This document shows positions 53,082 to 64,000 of a stretch of DNA of 64,000 bases, one piece after another. The stretch covers positions 124,001-188,000 of the forward strand of contig JANBVO010000014.1 in assembly GCA_030052745.1 (NCBI GenBank), in the 5' to 3' direction. This DNA is from Pleurostoma richardsiae. Taxonomy: Eukaryota; Ascomycota; Sordariomycetes; Calosphaeriales; Pleurostomataceae. The notes beneath the pieces were generated by a model. The model worked only from the letters and a program-made list of their open reading frames with translations. It ran no database searches and was not told where the DNA came from. The position numbers and the translations under genes were made by a program. The number at the start of each line of letters is the position of its first letter. The stretch's first letter is position 1.

Positions 53082-56000
53082 ATGAGATCGTCACTCTTTG
53101 CATCGCTGGCGGCAGTCTTGCCAGCCTTGGTGCGGTCTCTCAGTCCCACTGATGAGTATCAAGATGCGGTATGCTTCGTCCAGAGACACATCGCCTCCAG
53201 TATTGTGCGGACTCTCGTGCTGACTATCGCGCAGGACGTCCCCCAGTCGGGCTACTTGCCCAACCACAACTTGGAACCGGCCACGTTGAGCACGTTCAAG
53301 TTGACTTGGTCAAAGCAGTTTAATACGGCCGAGGTGTTCTATGCCAAGCCTCTCACTTACACCCCCAGCGGCTACTCCTCCGAGCTGGTCATCCTCGCCT
53401 CTAACCAGAACGTTCTCCGTGTTCTGGACGGACTCACGGGTACCGTTCTGTTCACGCGCATTCTTGACCCTCCCTTCCAGGCTAGCGACAGCCAGTGCGG
53501 TGACATTCCGAACATGATTGGCATCACTGGAACACCGCTCATCGATCCGGCTACGGACATCATGTACTTCTACTCTAAAGGCTACAAGAACGGCGCCACC
53601 GGTCCCGTGAACACTATTAGTGGTAGGTGTCCCTACGCAGGAGCAGCAGAGCTGCTTTACTAACTAGAAACTGTAGGGCAGTACAAGCTGTACGCTGTGA
53701 AGATCCCTACTCTGGAAGACGTCGCCGGCTTCCCCGTCAGCCTGGAGGGCCACTTCGCCAACAACGACAACACGCGCTACTTTGTCGGAGGCACGGTTCT
53801 GCAGCGGCCTGGCCTCGCTGTGCTGGGTGATTCCATCGTTGCAGGCTTCGGAGGGCATTGCGACAATTTCAACTACACCGGCATGCTTGTCACTGCAAGC
53901 AAAACAAGCGGGAAGATCACCAACGTCCAGGCAATGGTGGCAAGTCCTGGTACGTGTTTGTACTCGCCCTGCTGATCGCTGATGGGTTAACTTGCTGGTA
54001 CAGGAGCCCCATCACCTCAGCCGACAGACATCACCGTCCAGCAGGGTGGCAAGGCCGGTATCTGGGCATCTGGCATGGGTATCGCCGTCGACGCACCCAA
54101 TAACCGGGTCTTCTTCGCCACCGGGTATGCTCGCCCTGTCCCCTGACAGCAATTATGAGCAACACAAACCCATGCTGACTAACTCAGGAACGGCCGCGGA
54201 GCAGGCGTCAACGGCGCGGGACTATCCGTCAGCGGCAAGATCCCCATCAGCACCCTCGAGCAGGTTGTGGCCAACTTCGCGGTCGACGGCGCTGGAGGAC
54301 TGACGCAGAAGGATTACTTCGAGCCCTACGAGTACGACAACCTGAACGGTGCCGATAAGGACTTTGGCTCTTCTGGAGTCACGCTGCTGGACCCGAACCC
54401 TTTCTCCGGTGGCGGCGTGAGCCGACTCGCCGTTGCAGCGGGAAAGAATGGCAAGGTATGATTGTCCTAGCCGTGGAGAAAGCAGATATCGACTCCTTGC
54501 AGAGCTGGGTGGCTAACAGAACCTTACTAGGTCTATGTCATGGACGCCGATAATCTTGGAGGTTTCAAAATGGGTGAGTTCCTGTGGCAGTCTTGGATTT
54601 CTATGAGACCCAGAGCTAACAACTCGCAGGCTCCGGAGGCGGTGACGGAGGTAAGCTGTTTTGGGCAATGTTGAGAAGCTGCACTCCTGACGCAGCAAAC
54701 AGTACTCCAGACCATCACCTACGGCACCTCCTTTTTCGGAGGAGTTGGCAGCTACCCATTAGAAGGCGGCTACATCTAGCAAGTCGAGTTCTTTCCTCCC
54801 GCTGACAACTTTCTAACGGACTCTCAGCGTTGTTCCGACGAGCGACTCTCTGTATGCCTATAAGTTCGGCTTCGACGCCAACGGGAAGCCGGTGTTCACG
54901 CAGGCTGGCAAGACGGCCCTGACTTTCGCCGGACAGTGTGTCCCGACAGTGACCAGTCTCAACGGAAAAGCTGGCAGTGGAATCGTAAGTTCCGGCCTGA
55001 CCGTTCACAGAATGTTGCTGACGTCGCATCTAGGTATGGCTATCCGACATCAACCAAGGTCTCGTAGCATATAACGCTGTCCCAGTCGGTGGAGTGTTAC
55101 AGCCGATCACGATCCCGTCTACGGGGAGACTCACCAAATTCCAGCGTCCTTCGTTCGGCAATCAGCGGGTGTACACGTCAAGCCAAAACAAGGTGTATGG
55201 GCTAGGCCCTCCTGTCGCCGTCTCGTCCAGCAGTTCGAGCGTCATTAGCTCAACCTCGAAGGCGACGAGCTCCAGCAGTACATCAACGTCGAAAGTGAGC
55301 TCGACGTCGTCTATGACGTCCTCAAACCCTGCCAGCTCGTCGACTTCCTCGAAGGCCTCTAGTAGCAGCCTGACAAGCTCGAGCAAGCTCACCAGCTCGA
55401 GTGCTACCTCTTCGAAGATCTCCAGTAGCAGTCTGGGTAGTTCGTCTACTCTCACTAGCTCAAGTGCTACTTCATCGAAGTTGTCTTCAACAATATCCGT
55501 AATCTCGTCGTCATCCATAAGGCCGTCGTCATCCTCTACATCAAAGATATCGTCAACTGCGTCCTCGTCCACTTCCAAATTATCGAGCTCATCATCCAAG
55601 TTATCTTCCTCAACCTTCTCTTCAACACTAGTCACGAGTACAATTAAGTCGTCCAGTATCTCGTCGGAAACGTCCAGCAAGACTAGTTCCGCTGTCTCAA
55701 CCCCGACTATCCCAGCCGGTAAGTTGAGGACGTACAACTGGAACATCACGTGGGTCAGGGGTGCCCCAGATGGAGTTGCACGACCCTTCGTCGGCATCAA
55801 CGGCCAGTGGCCATGCCCACCATTGGAGGTCAATCTCGGCGACACCATCAAGATCAACGTGTACAACGCACTTGGGAATGAGAGCACTGCCATTCACTTC
55901 CACGGCATTTTCCAAGAGGGTACCAATTTCGAGGACGGCCCAGCTATGGTCACGCAATGTCCCATCCCGCCAGGCGAGATTTTTGTCTACCAATTCAAGA

Positions 56001-57636
56001 CCATGCAGTCCGGCACTTACTGGTACCACGCGCACATTGGTGGCCAATACATCGACGGCTTCCGCGGTCCTCTCATCATAAAGGATCCTGCTCCGCCGTA
56101 TGGGAAGGTCGATCAGGAGCTCACCCTGACCCTCTCGGACGTGTACCATCAGGAAGCGCCCTACCTGATCCATAATTACCTGTCCTCCGACAACACGGAT
56201 ACCACCGGCGGTGCTGAGCCGGTCCCAGATTCCGCGCTCATCAACGAGGCGCAGAACGTGAAGTTCTCGATTGCGCCGGGCAAGACATATCTGTTCCACA
56301 TCATCAACATGGGCGCTCTTGCAGGTATGTACCTGCAGTTCGACCAGCATACCATGACTGTGGTGGAGGTCGACGGCGTCTTTACCCAGCCGAAGAACTA
56401 TACGCAGCTGTTCGTAGCTGTCGCGCAGCGCTACAGTGTCATTGTGCAGGCGAAGGCGGATAGCAGCAGCAATTTTGCTATTGTGGCCTCAATGAACACA
56501 CAAATGTTCGGTGAGATGCAGCCGAGTCAGGGGGCGACCGTAAGTGTCTCTTCTATATACGTTCTACCTTCCTGTGTCCAGGACTGACACGACGAAAGGT
56601 TACTGGATGGCTTGTTTACGACGCGGCGAAGAGTCTCCCGACACCGTTCGCTTTGCAAGTCCAGCCGTTCGACGATTCCGTGCTTGTGCCTTACGATCAG
56701 ACGCCACTATTTGATCCACCCTCTCAGACGTAAGGACTCACTCCCTTTTTAGACCCTTTATGCATGCTGGATGCTGACTTTTTCGGCAGTATCTACCTGA
56801 CAGCAAGCTTTGGCGCCAATATCAATGGCTCAACTCGTGCGTTATGGAATGGTCTGACATATGTGTCGCCCAAGGTGGGTGCAGAACATCCTTCCTTGAG
56901 CCCCTTCTCCGATTCATGCTTAAGCCTCAACATACCCGTTTCCCAATCATAGATGCGTCGTCTGATCTTGACTTCTTAGGTTCCTACACTCTATAGCGCC
57001 CTCACCGCTCCCGATGACGTTATCACAAACCCGTCCATCTACGGCACCAACACTAACCCCTTTGTGCTGCCGTACGGCGCCGTCGTCGAGCTGGACATCA
57101 ACAATCACGATGATCGCGGCCATCCCTTCCATCTGCACGGTCACAACTTCCAGGTGATCTGGCGCTCCGATGGTGGCGCTAACTTCCCAGGGCTCTTCGC
57201 CAACCCAGCCGTGCCCATGCGCCGCGACACCGTCGTTATCTACGCCCAGGGCTCCGCCACCATCCGCTTCGTCGCAGACAACCCAGGCATCCAGCTCTTC
57301 CACTGTCACTCCGAGTGGCACGTTGAAGCTGGGCTGACAGCAACCTTCGTCGAGGCACCGGCCGAGCTGAAGGCCGCCAAGCCATACATACCCGTCAGCC
57401 ACCGGGACGTGTGCGATAAGCACGGCATCGCGAGGAAGGGAAACGCGGCGGGAAATAACAAGAACTGGTTGGATCTGACGGGCCAGAACACGGATCCGCC
57501 GGCGAACTATTGGGGGTAAGCTCCTCCCCCTCCTCTCTCTTTTCCTTGTGGCTCGGGTTCACATAATCCCCCTTCTCGATCGGAGATCGCGAGACTGACA
57601 TTCGACACTAGAGCGCTTGTAAATCCACCAGCGTGA
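53082..57636 (+). CDS. Secreted PQQ-type beta-propeller fused to Fet3-like multicopper oxidase
   Basis: Fourteen exons: 53082..53168, 53235..53622, 53677..53949, 54004..54124, 54188..54455, 54531..54573, 54630..54650, 54703..54778, 54828..54984, 55034..56539, 56599..56729, 56790..56874, 56980..57515 and 57612..57636, giving 1238 aa. Signal peptide at 1–20. Residues ~30–541 form a quinoprotein-like propeller (LRVLDGLTGTVLFTRI, VYVMDADNLGGF, SLYAYKFGFDANGKPVF). Residues ~542–705 are a Ser/Thr linker. Residues ~706–1238 are three cupredoxin domains with all four copper motifs: HFHG (766), WYHAH (810, HAH rather than the usual HSH), HPFHLHGH (1100) and HCHSEWH (1160). Propeller, linker and oxidase are joined inside one 1506-base exon, so the fusion does not depend on splicing. 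Body and IGGQYIDGFRG-type motifs resemble Fet3, but there is no C-terminal membrane anchor. Confidence 0.88.
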
Positions 57637-58916
57637 GCTCTTGCCAGCTCTGACAATACGGCATGGTTATTCTAGCTATCCTGGAGATAATGGCGAAAGC
57701 TTCGTTGTGCTCAGGTCGGCACGAGCCCGCCAAATATGACCAGGGGCGGGCGTTTCAGCTTTGCTTGCCGCATTTGTACAGTATAAGTCGATCGCTATTA
57801 ATGACTGGTTTTCGTCTCCTCGGGCGCCCTGCTCGGGTACAGGTGTTGTTTTTTCGGATGGCCGATGACAAGGTGTCTCTAATACGTAAGAATATCTACG
57901 CAGTCCCAGTCAGGCGGCCACCTGAAGAACATGGTGAAGAGCTGCTAGAACTTGCACGCGAAGCCAATCTTCAGTGACATGGACAGCTCCATAGGTGAGT
58001 CTCGAGAGTGAGGCTTGTGAAATGTGAGGATCTTGAAGTCGAGAGGCGAAGATGTATGAGGGGGAGCCCTGATTCGCAATGAGCCGGAGATCCCCGGGCC
58101 TACCAGGGGATTTGCTTATCAGGCTGTTCCAGTTGTTTCTGCAAGCCAAACCGTCTGGGATTAGAGGATGGATTATAGATAGCTGCCAGCAGCAGAGCTA
58201 CGCGACCTGTGCGCGCTGATCCACGGTGATGGTACGATAAGTATGAAGTAAATCGCAAGCCTCTCACCGGCAGATGAAATTCACGGGCGTGCTGATCGGA
58301 AGAACATCTAACGTGCGGTCCGCGTTGATAGTAAACCCCCCAGTCGCTCATTTCATCTGTCTTGTTGATACTGGTCCGGGCGAGGCAGGCTCCCCAGAGA
58401 CCCAGAAAGAGAGCCGTGCTTATCTCCCGCCCCCGCTCCGGTCGTGGCAACGGGGATCGGGTCCGGCCCGACTGCCGCTCAGGGATGCTAAGTTTCTCGA
58501 TAGGGCCTCGCTATGTCGTTCCCATCCTATCAAGGATGGAGGACGAACAGCGTCGGGCTGCGCGACTCCACCGCTGACGAATGCTTGTGTGGTGATAAGG
58601 CATGATTCCAGGCGCTTGGAGCAGTCTATTATGTATTCCGTGTGTCCAAACGGCGGTTTCGCCATATTTAGCGTGGTTCACACTATCACTAGGGTAGAAG
58701 GTCGATGCAACATCTCGCGGTCCCTGTTGATAACGTGCTACACTATCGGGATGGCGATAGCAAGACGCCGATCCTTGGACATGATAAACCCCGGGAGCCA
58801 GCTCACGCGTCCTGGCCAAGAATGCTTGTTCAGTGTGCGTCGCCTTGGCCTCTCTGCGCTTGTCTCGCAGAGCTCGAAAAGTCCTGGAGGGTACCATTAC
58901 CATAGTAAACGCAGAC
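57637..58916. other. Intergenic, no gene seen
   Basis: About 1.28 kb between two same-strand genes. It holds the oxidase 3' end and the OPT transporter promoter. Open frames on both strands (e.g. 58274–58975, 58511–59029 reverse) have no motif. Confidence 0.5.
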
Positions 58917-61900
58917 ATGGCTACCGAAATCCAGCGGGTCAATTCAGACCTACCAAGGCCGGCAAATTCGGATGATGATGGATCGGATATCGAGAAGAAG
59001 AACGTTACCCGCACCAACGTGTCGGACATCGAGGCCGTGGCCTATGCTGACCCAGACTTCTCTGATGAGACCAAGGCGTTCCTGCATAGGGCTGACCATA
59101 CCGAGCTCACACCAGCTGAGGCTTTCAACTGGGATGTTCATGGTGACCAGTCTCCCTGTAGGTGACCTGCTCAATGAAATGAAGGCTCGCTGTCGGATTC
59201 TGGCGAATGCTAACCGTCCCCAGTCCCGGAAGTCGCTGCATGTGTGCCAAACACCGATGACACCAGTATCCCGTGCAACAGTAAGTCCTGCCAAAGTCTT
59301 CCCCTATCTATCTCATGCAGTAACATCCATCACCAGCATTCCGAGCTTGGGTTCTCACCACGGTCTTTGTTATTCTATTCTCTGGTGTCAACCAGTTCTT
59401 CGGTCTGCGTTACGTTGGTCTTCCTGTTCCTCCAAGTCATGCAGACTATTAACAGACCTGGGGCAGCCATCCCTATCAATTGGTTATGTCGTTGCTCAGC
59501 TTCTTGTCTTCCCCATCGGTCGAGCATGGGAGAAGCTCCCTCGATGGCGAGTCCCCTTGGGCAAATTGTCCTTCGACATCAACCCGGGGCCATTCACCAT
59601 CAAGGAGCATGCATTGATTGTTATTGTAAGATTAATCCCGCTTTCGCAACTTTATCCAGTCTATTGTTATCATTCACTAACTTTTAAAAACCTAGTGTGT
59701 GAACATCAGCGCCAACGTCGCATACGCTTCGGGGTCCCTGGTCGCGATCATCAGCCCTGTGTATTGGAACCGCGACTATGGAGCTGGCTTCGGGTTCCTT
59801 TACCTCTTGACCACACAGATGCTCGGGTGAGTTCTAATGGAAGGAACGTGCGTGTCCTAAGCTGACATGCTCTTTAGGTTTGGGCTTGCTGGCCTCTCCC
59901 GTCGATGGCTTGTATACCCTGCAGCGCTCATCTGGCCTTCGTCACTCTCATCAACGGTCTTGTTCCGCGCTCTCCATGAACCACAGGAGAAATCACCGGC
60001 CAATGGATGGACACTCTCGCGATACCGCTTCTTCAGCTACTTCACCATCTTTGCCTTCGTCCTCTTCTGGTTCCCTGACTATATCTGGACGAGTCTCGGT
60101 ACCTTCGCTTTCATCACCTGGATTGTCCCTCACAACCAGAAAGTGAACACGATCTTCGGGGTCAGTATCTTCGGTATGCAAGTTGCGTGAACTTGAAGCT
60201 GACTTTTTGAAGATGAACTCTGGACTTGGCTTGTTGCCTCTGAGCATTGACTGGACTCAAATCACCTACGCCGGCACGCCCCTGACGACGCCCTTCTATA
60301 TCACCTGTAATGCCTTTGCCGTGGTGGTCCTATTCTACCTGTTCCTGTCACCGATCCTGTACTACACGAATGTATGGAACAGCGCTTAGTGAGTTCCAAT
60401 CCTGTCTCTATGTTTCTCACACCAGTCCCCGCGGCTTGCATGCGTCGCAGAACTGACAACAGGAACAGTCTACCACTTCTGTCCTCCAGCACTTTTGACA
60501 ACACCGGGAAGTCGTACAACATCTCCCGGGTCGTCGACTCAAACCTCAACTTTGTACTGAGCAAGTATGAGGCTTACTCCCCCATGTACATCTCCATGTC
60601 GTACTCGCTTACGTACGCCCTGTCCTTCGCCGCCGTGACCGCCATCGTCTTTTACACGTATCTGTACAACGGCTCTGAGATCTGGGCCAAGTTCAAGAAC
60701 GCGCGACATGGCGGCGAGGACATCCACAAGCGGCTCATGAACAATTACAAGGAGGTGCCTGACTGGTGGTACGGCATCCTCACAGTCGTCGTTCTTGGCC
60801 TTGGCATCCTGACGGTGAACTACTGGGACTCGGGCCTTCCGGTCTGGGGATTCATTGTGGTTTGTTTCGGCATGGGGGTGCTACTGATTGTGCCGGAGGG
60901 TATTCTTGAAGGGACAACAAACCAGAGAATGTTAGGAGCAGCTCCCCTTATATTGGCATATGAAAGTCGGCTAACGACACTAATTCCAGCTTCCTGAACA
61001 TCATTACCGAGCTTATTGCTGGATACGCTTGGCCCGGCAAACCCATTGCTAACATGATGGTTAAGTGCTATGGCTACAACTCGGTTAAGCACGGCATGGA
61101 CTTTGCTCAAGACCTGAAGCTTGGGCAGTACATGGTATGTTTCTATCTCTCCTACCATTTCGGGAGACTAACTGTCACCTTGCAGAAAATCCCTCCTCGA
61201 GTACTCTTTGTTGGACAGATTTACTCGTCCATCTTGGCAACAATGACCCAAGTTGGTGGTGAGTACCAATCTCTAACACACCTCCTACCTAGAAGGAGGT
61301 TTGTAAATAACGACGTTACAAGTGCTCCGGTGGATGATTGGTCATATTCCGAAACTGTGTGATCCAAAGAACACTCAACGCTTCACCTGCAACGGTGCTA
61401 AGGTTGTGTACAACGCGTCGCTGATTTGGGGCACCATCGGCCCTCAGAGGATGTTCCAGTCTGGACAGGTGTACAGCGGAATCATGTACTTCTTCTTGAT
61501 CGGAGTACGTCATATTTCATTCCTGGGAGAACCCGGCAGCCGTGTGTTGTACTGACGTATTGCTTGCTTTTAAGCCGGTGGTCACCATCCTCGTATATCT
61601 TGTTTACCGCCGATATCCCAACAGCTGGGTCCGATACATCAACGTGCCAGTATTTTTTAATGCAGCAGGCAACATTCCACCAGCCAACACGAGTATGGCC
61701 CTTAAAATAACCTCTGAGACCCTTGAGAGAGCTAATTCTGACGTTCTGCAGCCCAATACTCGCTCTGGTTCATATTCGGCTTCATCTTCAACCACCTCAT
61801 CCGGAGACGCGCCTTTGATTGGTGGAAACGATATAACTGTAGGTCCCATGCTTAAAACGCTTTACTTCCTGTTATCAATGTTTCTAACAACGTCTGCTAC

Positions 61901-62974: not shown

Positions 62975-64000
62975 TTAAGCAGTGCTCGTGGCAGCCGCGC
63001 TGCTCACAGAGCTGGCGGAGCTGCCAAAGCCACCACCGAGAGATGGGGAGTCGTCGTTGGCAACGCCACCATCGGCGTAATAGAAAGCAGCGGGAGTGAT
63101 ACTCTGGGTCTCGGTGGTGTTGATGCCAAAAGCAAGCCAGGCAAACAAGCCGTCGGACACGTCGTCGCCGAGAAGGGTGTACTCATGGAAGGGGTCAACG
63201 CCGTCCGTGGCAGTCTCCTCGCTTAAGATAGAGTCGTCGGCGTTGGTTGTGAGCACCTGAGTATTTGTGCTATAGGGATCAAGCACCTCAACTGCAGAGA
63301 TAAGGGTCTGATCGAAGAAGGCCTGGCCAACATGGCTTGCGGTAACTTCGTTGCCCAAGGTTCCGTTGGGGTAGATAGTGGCGTTGGTGTGAACCATCAG
63401 GTGAATGTGAGTGGCTCGAGAAGTGTAGTGGCCGGGGAAGATGGTCTCGAACTGCGTAACTCCATCGGAGTCTGTCGGCTGGATACCGCGCAGGAAAGTC
63501 TTGTCAATGTTGACCTCATCCGAGGAGTCACCGTTTCCAGAGGCGACGATGCCCGAGTAAACACCAGTCGCGTTGCAGTGCCACATTTCAAGGTAGACGT
63601 TGGGGACGGGTTCACAGGTGTCAACGTCAATGACCTGGTAATCAATGATAGTGTCGACACCTTCTTGGTCCTCTCGAACATCACGTCTGATGTACTCGCC
63701 GCCGACGTCTATATATCGCGGTCAGTATCGAAGCTCCGGGAAATATTACCAAGTAGGAACACATTACTTACAGTAAGGGCCTTGTGTGACGTCAGGGGTC
63801 AAGATACAGGAGTTGTTACCACTGAAGAGGGTCGCGGCATCGGTGTTCACAGTGTATCCGAGACCAGTTTCGTTGTGAGATGTAGCCAAAACGGTGTCGA
63901 GGTCACGTTTCTTCAAGCCGCGCTTGGCCCTGGCCTTCTCGAGCGCAGCAGTTCGGCGGGCGACATTGCGCTTGTCAACGCCGCGGGCCTTCAGCTTGGC
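62975..64000 (-). CDS. Extracellular intradiol ring-cleavage dioxygenase, 5' end outside window
   Basis: Exons complement(63772..>64000) and complement(62975..63708). About 320 residues are visible; the signal peptide and start are beyond the right edge. The first visible part is basic and helical (VARRTAALEKARAKRGLKKR). The catalytic domain follows: CILTPDVTQGPYY joined by splicing to VGGEYIRRDVRED, then DVDTCEPVPNVYLEMWHCN and FETIFPGHYTSRATHIHLMVH. The Tyr/Tyr/His/His Fe(III) ligands of intradiol (catechol 1,2- or protocatechuate 3,4-type) dioxygenases are present in these motifs. The Ser/Ala-rich C-tail (GGGFGSSASSVSSAAATS) is usual in the secreted fungal subfamily, which cleaves catechols and lignin- or tannin-derived phenols outside the cell. 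Substrate not deducible. Confidence 0.9.

Follow-up and report, generated by a model that had tools for sequence, protein, structure and literature searches.

The 64,000-nucleotide stretch analysed here (the window), taken from contig JANBVO010000014.1 of the ascomycete Pleurostoma richardsiae (contig C43 in the following), carries on its forward strand a gene (53082..57636) in which a beta-propeller resembling that of pyrroloquinoline quinone (PQQ) enzymes is joined to a Fet3-like multicopper oxidase. The rebuilt spliced model extends from an ATG at 53082 to the end of the stop codon at 57636 and comprises 14 exons (53082-53168, 53235-53622, 53677-53949, 54004-54124, 54188-54455, 54531-54573, 54630-54650, 54703-54778, 54828-54984, 55034-56539, 56599-56729, 56790-56874, 56980-57515 and 57612-57636), which encode 1238 residues. 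The 13 introns measure 49-105 bases each and are of the GT-AG type except for a single GC-AG intron in the propeller part (54779..54827, donor GCAAGT), the removal of which gives ...LEGGYIYVVP, matched by the paralogues. The join lies within exon 10 (55034..56539), which is open over all of its 1506 bases, starts at residue 479 in the end of the propeller, runs across the whole linker and takes in the greater part of the first and second cupredoxin domains. The introns on either side of the join match those of paralogous genes, on the propeller side the gene on contig C96 (L037) and on the oxidase side L042 (contig C49), and the last small exon is backed by L042 as well, with a similar tail and an intron at the same position and phase.

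The protein begins with a hydrophobic, signal-peptide-like segment (about residues 1-22, 53082..53147), within which residues 3-21 have the highest hydropathy of any 19-residue stretch in the chain; the fusion protein is probably secreted. The propeller follows with residues 20-541 (53139..55222, nine introns inside), delimited by bacterial homologues, by profile matches to quinoproteins and BamB, and by the predicted fold of the bacterial homologue L054. It leads into a Ser/Thr-rich linker of 166 residues (542-707, 55223..55720), or of 170 if cut at residue 538, with 89 Ser and 25 Thr among the 170, which is probably O-glycosylated. The oxidase occupies residues 708-1238 (55721..57633), as judged from Pfam, the alignment to Fet3p and its copper motifs. 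Since Met572 is the only methionine in the linker and nothing signal-like follows it, a secreted oxidase starting inside the linker is unlikely, and the open join argues strongly, if not finally, for one real gene with a single secreted product built of two modules. The earlier note, made from the letters of this DNA, had described a single-frame fusion of 1238 residues, with the propeller end, linker and oxidase start in one uninterrupted 1506-base exon behind a single signal peptide; all of this reappears in the rebuilt gene, the signal peptide as a hydrophobic signal-like segment, and its linker is Ser/Thr-rich as described but slightly longer than the approximately 164 residues given there. 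Each half is of a known kind, and the joined domain arrangement appears to be new and well founded in sequence; the combination of propeller and multicopper oxidase is not described among the best open-access full-text matches.

Scanning the 1238-residue model with Pfam bore out the copper half of the domain content anticipated in that note and left the propeller half blank. Three Cu-oxidase domains were found in the order 3-1-2, namely Cu-oxidase_3 (PF07732; residues 716-831, 55745..56092, E=3.3e-40), Cu-oxidase (PF00394; residues 840-989, 56117..56625, one intron inside, E=6.8e-38) and Cu-oxidase_2 (PF07731; residues 1048-1180, 56860..57363, one intron inside, E=4.2e-39), with the copper motifs HFHG at 766, WYHAH at 808, HPFHLHGH at 1100 and HCHSEWH at 1160. 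The full set of copper ligands, ten His and one Cys, could be aligned with Fet3p, and the axial position of the type 1 (T1) copper is taken by Leu1171, as in Fet3p. Yeast Fet3p (PDB 1zpu) is the closest PDB relative, with nearly the whole half aligned at E=2.6e-121, in agreement with the Fet3-like character proposed before. Both Glu185 and Asp409 of Fet3p, in a numbering counted by hand on the 1zpu alignment with a 21-residue offset, find acidic counterparts in Glu873 and Asp1096. According to PMC10741624, the acidic residues of Fet3p are Glu185, Asp283 and Asp409, and a laccase-ferroxidase subgroup with equivalents of Glu185 and Asp409 displays efficient ferroxidase activity. Ferroxidase or laccase activity may be expected of the copper half. 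Compared with Fet3p the window protein has in addition the N-terminal propeller and the long linker, and unlike Fet3-type ferroxidases it has no C-terminal membrane segment, the hydropathy maximum among the averaging frames starting beyond residue 1180 being -0.31. By these features, the oxidase half is predicted to be a soluble member of the Fet3 lineage of multicopper oxidases.

Cu-oxidase_3 domains are frequent in this genome, with at least 28 matches at at least 22 places (the places counted by hand from the matches, both numbers being lower bounds), and the four best-scoring paralogues were spliced for comparison. Their identity to the window oxidase amounts to 51% for the copy on contig C81 (L039), 50% for C126 (L041), 46% for C49 (L042, which has the last intron and a similar tail in common with the window gene) and 44% for C13 (L040). 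Fet3 and Ftr1 genes usually occur as a pair. The five FTR1 matches in the genome fall at three places, on C13, C81 and C126, each about 1-2.5 kb from one of the paralogous Fet3-like oxidases; these three combinations of oxidase and permease have the appearance of reductive iron uptake pairs. No FTR1 match was obtained on the window contig C43 in the genome search, nor is there one on the contig of L042. Having no FTR1 nearby, in contrast to three of the four paralogues examined, the window oxidase can be regarded as a member of the Fet3 lineage that stands outside the FTR1 pairing.

The nature of the propeller is less easily read. No Pfam family matched the propeller half, even when it was scanned alone at E<=10, and NCBIfam gave no match to it either; among the four fungal copies described below, one member each reached a sub-threshold Pfam propeller match (Beta-prop_ACSF4, 0.0079; PQQ_2, 0.088). 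With Pfam blank over this region, the PQQ-type label had to be established by other routes. A PDB search with the single window sequence gave no result, and one with the four fungal sequences returned only two rows that look like chance matches (E 0.41 and 1.1). One such route was the family of bacterial homologues found with the C46 copy as query: 20 of the 22 plasmid records cover at least 80% of the query, and the best 20 show 22.6-26.8% identity to it. Propellers from Caballeronia, Paraburkholderia, Acidisarcina and Bradyrhizobium are annotated as PQQ-binding-like beta-propeller repeat proteins, and the bacterial family members are 21-29% identical to the window copy; they fall far below the cut-off of TIGR03075 and also below that of PF01011. 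For the comparisons that follow, alignment A2 took in five of the 22 bacterial plasmid records, alignment A6 comprised 14 sequences without L046 and L043, and the residue table 16 sequences. Viral contigs gave no result with the queries P0003, A1 and P0002. Beside the Caballeronia insecticola propeller gene, an open reading frame of 889 residues (L046, 628-3297) resembles by eye a membrane PQQ glucose dehydrogenase.

Profile searches of the PDB with the propeller family retrieved quinoproteins, BamB and tetrathionate hydrolase. Most of the strong rows cover a single repeated blade or a few of them; long alignments among these come only from quinohemoproteins (1kb0; in the second search 1kv9 and 1yiq as well). 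When the 14 family members were compared with five PQQ dehydrogenases by hhalign, a probability of 97.7 and E=1.5e-12 resulted, whereas the four fungal propellers alone gave a weak match (probability 49.5, E=1.7e-4). The fold assignment rests on the prediction for L054, which is 29% identical to the window copy (mean predicted local distance difference test score, pLDDT, 76), and on a partial fungal relative that was likewise predicted with a PQQ-like propeller fold (pLDDT 66); the window propeller is placed by homology to these. For L054 the first Foldseek rows are 8gy2, 1yiq and 1kb0 (TM-score 0.54-0.57 by query), and the first VIA-align rows are designed propellers, YxaL and BamB; the quinoprotein dehydrogenases that lead by Foldseek are absent from the best 50 VIA-align rows. 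The term eight-bladed, where used below, is taken from the structural matches and not from a count of blades. Along these lines, homology assigns the window propeller to the PQQ-like propeller superfamily, and it is at this superfamily level that the earlier designation as PQQ-type stands; both halves are also complete, as had been proposed.

A set of pocket residues is conserved throughout this family. Trp270 (54063-54065), Asn291 (54189-54191), Asp346 (54354-54356), Asp348 (54360-54362) and Lys376 (54444-54446), all within 54063..54446, are invariant in the 16 aligned members, bacterial proteins included, and the upstream group (53496..53864) consists of Cys117 (53496-53498), Arg202 (53805-53807) and the His219-Cys220-Asp221 sequence (53856-53864). 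Arg202 is found in 15 of the 16 members and Asp221 in 14, being replaced by Val in L036 and L043. Cys117 and Cys220 occur together, both in ten members and neither in five, with a displaced second Cys in the Bradyrhizobium protein, and are possibly linked by a separate disulphide. When aligned to 1kb0 by HMMER, the residues Trp270, Asn291, Asp348 and Lys376 coincide with a Trp, an Asn, an Asp and a Lys, which we take to be the PQQ site of that enzyme, the role of the Trp (Trp243) being likewise presumed. The hhalign comparison of the four fungal propellers agrees with this placement at all four positions; that of the 14 members places Asn and Lys alike, but sets the Trp on another one upstream and displaces Asp by a single position. 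The vicinal Cys-Cys pair of the PQQ dehydrogenases, presumably of importance for their function, is incomplete in the 1kb0 alignment, the residue table and the hhalign result alike, only its first Cys being aligned and the second absent. Whether the propeller retains PQQ or metal ligands, a point raised in the earlier note, thus receives a divided answer: the Trp, Asn, Asp and Lys positions are kept, and of the vicinal pair just the first Cys remains. In methanol dehydrogenase the ligands are Glu177, Asn261 and Asp303, with Arg331 behind them (PMC8028316), and Asp221, which comes near the Glu177 position, misses it by one residue in the two profile alignments alike. The propeller accordingly shares with the PQQ alcohol dehydrogenases (1kb0, 8gy2, methanol dehydrogenase) the superfamily and four site positions, and differs from them in the vicinal Cys pair and in the lack of any NCBIfam or Pfam match.

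Within the genome, two queries identified four genes with this propeller, the window gene and copies on contigs C46, C96 and C47, which are 40-54% identical to the window propeller (C96, 54%). Paralogue models, built by splice-aware alignment with the window protein as guide, may contain local errors; on these models four of the nine propeller introns are common to the C96 gene (L037) in position and phase, and none is shared exactly with C46 or C47. In the three sister proteins the propeller is followed by HYDIN/ASH-type Ig-like domains, which in C96 stay below the Pfam cut-off, and by several WSC domains in place of the oxidase, and Ser-rich spacers recur in them and in L043, which has the same propeller company. 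None of the 28 Cu-oxidase_3 matches listed for the genome lies on contigs C46, C96 or C47. The window protein, in turn, contains no WSC domain in the whole-protein Pfam scan, and its only Ig-type match is a sub-threshold one (Ig_NUP210_15th, E=0.0089) lying inside the oxidase. The four introns common with C96 and the 54% identity show that the window propeller belongs to the propeller-Ig-WSC family, and it can be rationalized that one of the two C-terminal parts, oxidase or Ig-WSC, replaced the other, the exchange being conceivable in either direction.

The bacterial propeller proteins share with the window protein the near full-length homology and the invariant pocket residues, but are stand-alone (494-554 residues in three annotated homologues, with no further domain noted) or, in L054 (3564-4580), followed by IPT/TIG domains, so that Ig-like partners of this propeller also occur in bacteria. 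A motif scan of the loci L036-L059 recognized the oxidase paralogues L039-L042 and one probably chance match in L055; the scanned flanks of the bacterial homologues contain no clear oxidase motif. The search of genome contigs had a single match, L043 (NYXK01000007.1), filed under the Deltaproteobacteria metagenome-assembled genome CPC1. A bacterial origin was rejected, because it encodes WSC domains in reading frames that are interrupted at sites resembling introns; the contig looks fungal and is apparently a mis-binned eukaryotic contig. Being treated as fungal, L043 therefore provides no evidence for bacterial WSC fusions. In the phylum search around this assembly, matches came from two of 52 genomes, one being this same assembly and the other contributing a marginal match over about 80 residues (5.9e-4). 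Six Cu-oxidase_3 matches of the assembly lie on contigs C58, C9, C220 and C141, and the propeller gene lies on C11.

With these elements at hand, we tentatively favour, at a little under an even chance, a secreted protein in which a ligand-binding propeller determines the place of an oxidase. The copper half would work as an ordinary oxidase, with Fe(II) or phenols as electron donors to the T1 copper and with the trinuclear site reducing O2 to water; the propeller, eight-bladed by its matches, would bind a small molecule, a cofactor or a wall component in its conserved pocket, and this ligand would set where the oxidase acts, with the long linker as a spacer between the modules. WSC domains, the partners of this propeller in the sister proteins, bind wall polysaccharides in a tested case (PMC8400822). 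A ligand-binding and placing role for the propeller seems somewhat likelier than electron coupling; of the two options in the earlier note, the missing Cys pair and the three sisters without an oxidase favour binding or targeting as much as electron coupling from a dehydrogenase-like propeller. Several observations weigh against such an oxidase placed by its propeller. What is conserved in the pocket corresponds to the PQQ site of dehydrogenases, and this argues for catalysis with a cofactor instead of mere binding. No WSC or Ig-like domain of the window protein exceeds the Pfam cut-off, so a wall location can be argued by analogy only. In the 1zpu alignment, the Fet3p Asp283 position is occupied by Gly and the Tyr354 position, to which we presume a functional role in Fet3p, by Arg, and these changes make ferroxidase activity uncertain. 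If the halves indeed work uncoupled, a propeller of the WSC type would be seen to be re-usable with an oxidase, here a soluble one in place of the WSC proteins that otherwise carry it, and a fungal and bacterial propeller family hardly recognized by Pfam is brought to attention in either case.

A coupled redox enzyme, in which a propeller with PQQ and metal oxidizes a substrate and delivers the electrons intramolecularly to the T1 copper, O2 being reduced without a free mediator, is fairly unlikely in our estimation. The correspondence of Trp270, Asn291, Asp348 and Lys376 with the 1kb0 site, invariant across the family, and the strong hhalign result of the 14 members speak for it, and fungi are able to use PQQ enzymes, as the AA12 family demonstrates (PMC6881810, PMC6881789). 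On the other hand, the vicinal disulphide is missing, Asp221 is displaced from the Glu177 position, the three sister genes carry this propeller but no oxidase (in one of them Val stands at the Asp221 position), the fungal propellers by themselves match the PQQ dehydrogenases weakly, the structural searches with Foldseek and VIA-align disagree about these enzymes, and a linker of 166 residues is too long to enforce contact. The missing Cys pair, the oxidase-free sisters and the linker length in particular weaken the case for electron transfer from the propeller. The invariant Asp346-x-Asp348 spacing equals that of the Asp327/Asp329 pair of lanthanide methanol dehydrogenase (PMC8028316), and a lanthanide-type site is possible on this ground, but alignments with Asp348 as the catalytic Asp put the extra Asp on the other side than in the lanthanide pair. 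Were the halves coupled, nature would have supplied an oxidase that needs no mediator, and this could matter to biocatalysis as well as to the chemistry of iron or lignin in fungi.

Two independent activities, with the propeller as a distinct kind of enzyme, such as a hydrolase that needs no cofactor, joined to the oxidase for co-secretion only, are unlikely. Tetrathionate hydrolase appears among the structural and profile matches of the propeller family, and the enzyme of Acidithiobacillus ferrooxidans, with the same fold, works without PQQ and with a pocket Asp (PMC10859504); the stand-alone bacterial homologues would fit this picture as well. Against it stand the description, in the same review, of Ad-TTH1 as lacking the conserved PQQ-site residues, several of which the window family keeps, the quinoid compounds detected in another tetrathionate hydrolase, Ac-TetH (PMC10859504), and the ten neighbouring reading frames scanned, which suggest no substrate for the propeller. 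A known fusion of a copper redox enzyme with a propeller offers a comparison, since there too the two are joined and the propeller has an activity of its own; the families differ from the present ones, and that propeller is six-bladed with lactonase activity.

The more specific idea of a self-contained secreted oxidase, in which electrons from a substrate oxidized by a quinoprotein propeller with a PQQ and metal site would move to the tethered T1 copper and on to O2, copper thereby replacing the cytochrome partner of a known fungal quinoprotein, is decidedly unlikely. The comparison is with the AA12 proteins CcPDH and TrAA12, fungal quinoproteins of which CcPDH is joined to a redox partner, cytochrome b, instead of a copper oxidase (PMC6881789), and which differ further in their six-bladed propeller resembling soluble glucose dehydrogenase (PMC6881810). 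No AA12-type structure occurs among the best 50 Foldseek or VIA-align rows for L054, a listing that leaves room for one further down. Finally, separate propeller and oxidase genes read as one through annotation or assembly are very improbable, for while the linker is of low complexity and a single copy of the fusion was found in the genome, the propeller end and the oxidase share one open exon in frame, an oxidase-only start would need Met572 with no signal-like stretch after it, and the introns on both sides match paralogues.

Downstream of the fusion gene, the window contains an exon of an OPT-family transporter (58909-59862, + strand) and an intradiol-dioxygenase-like exon (62978-63721, - strand).

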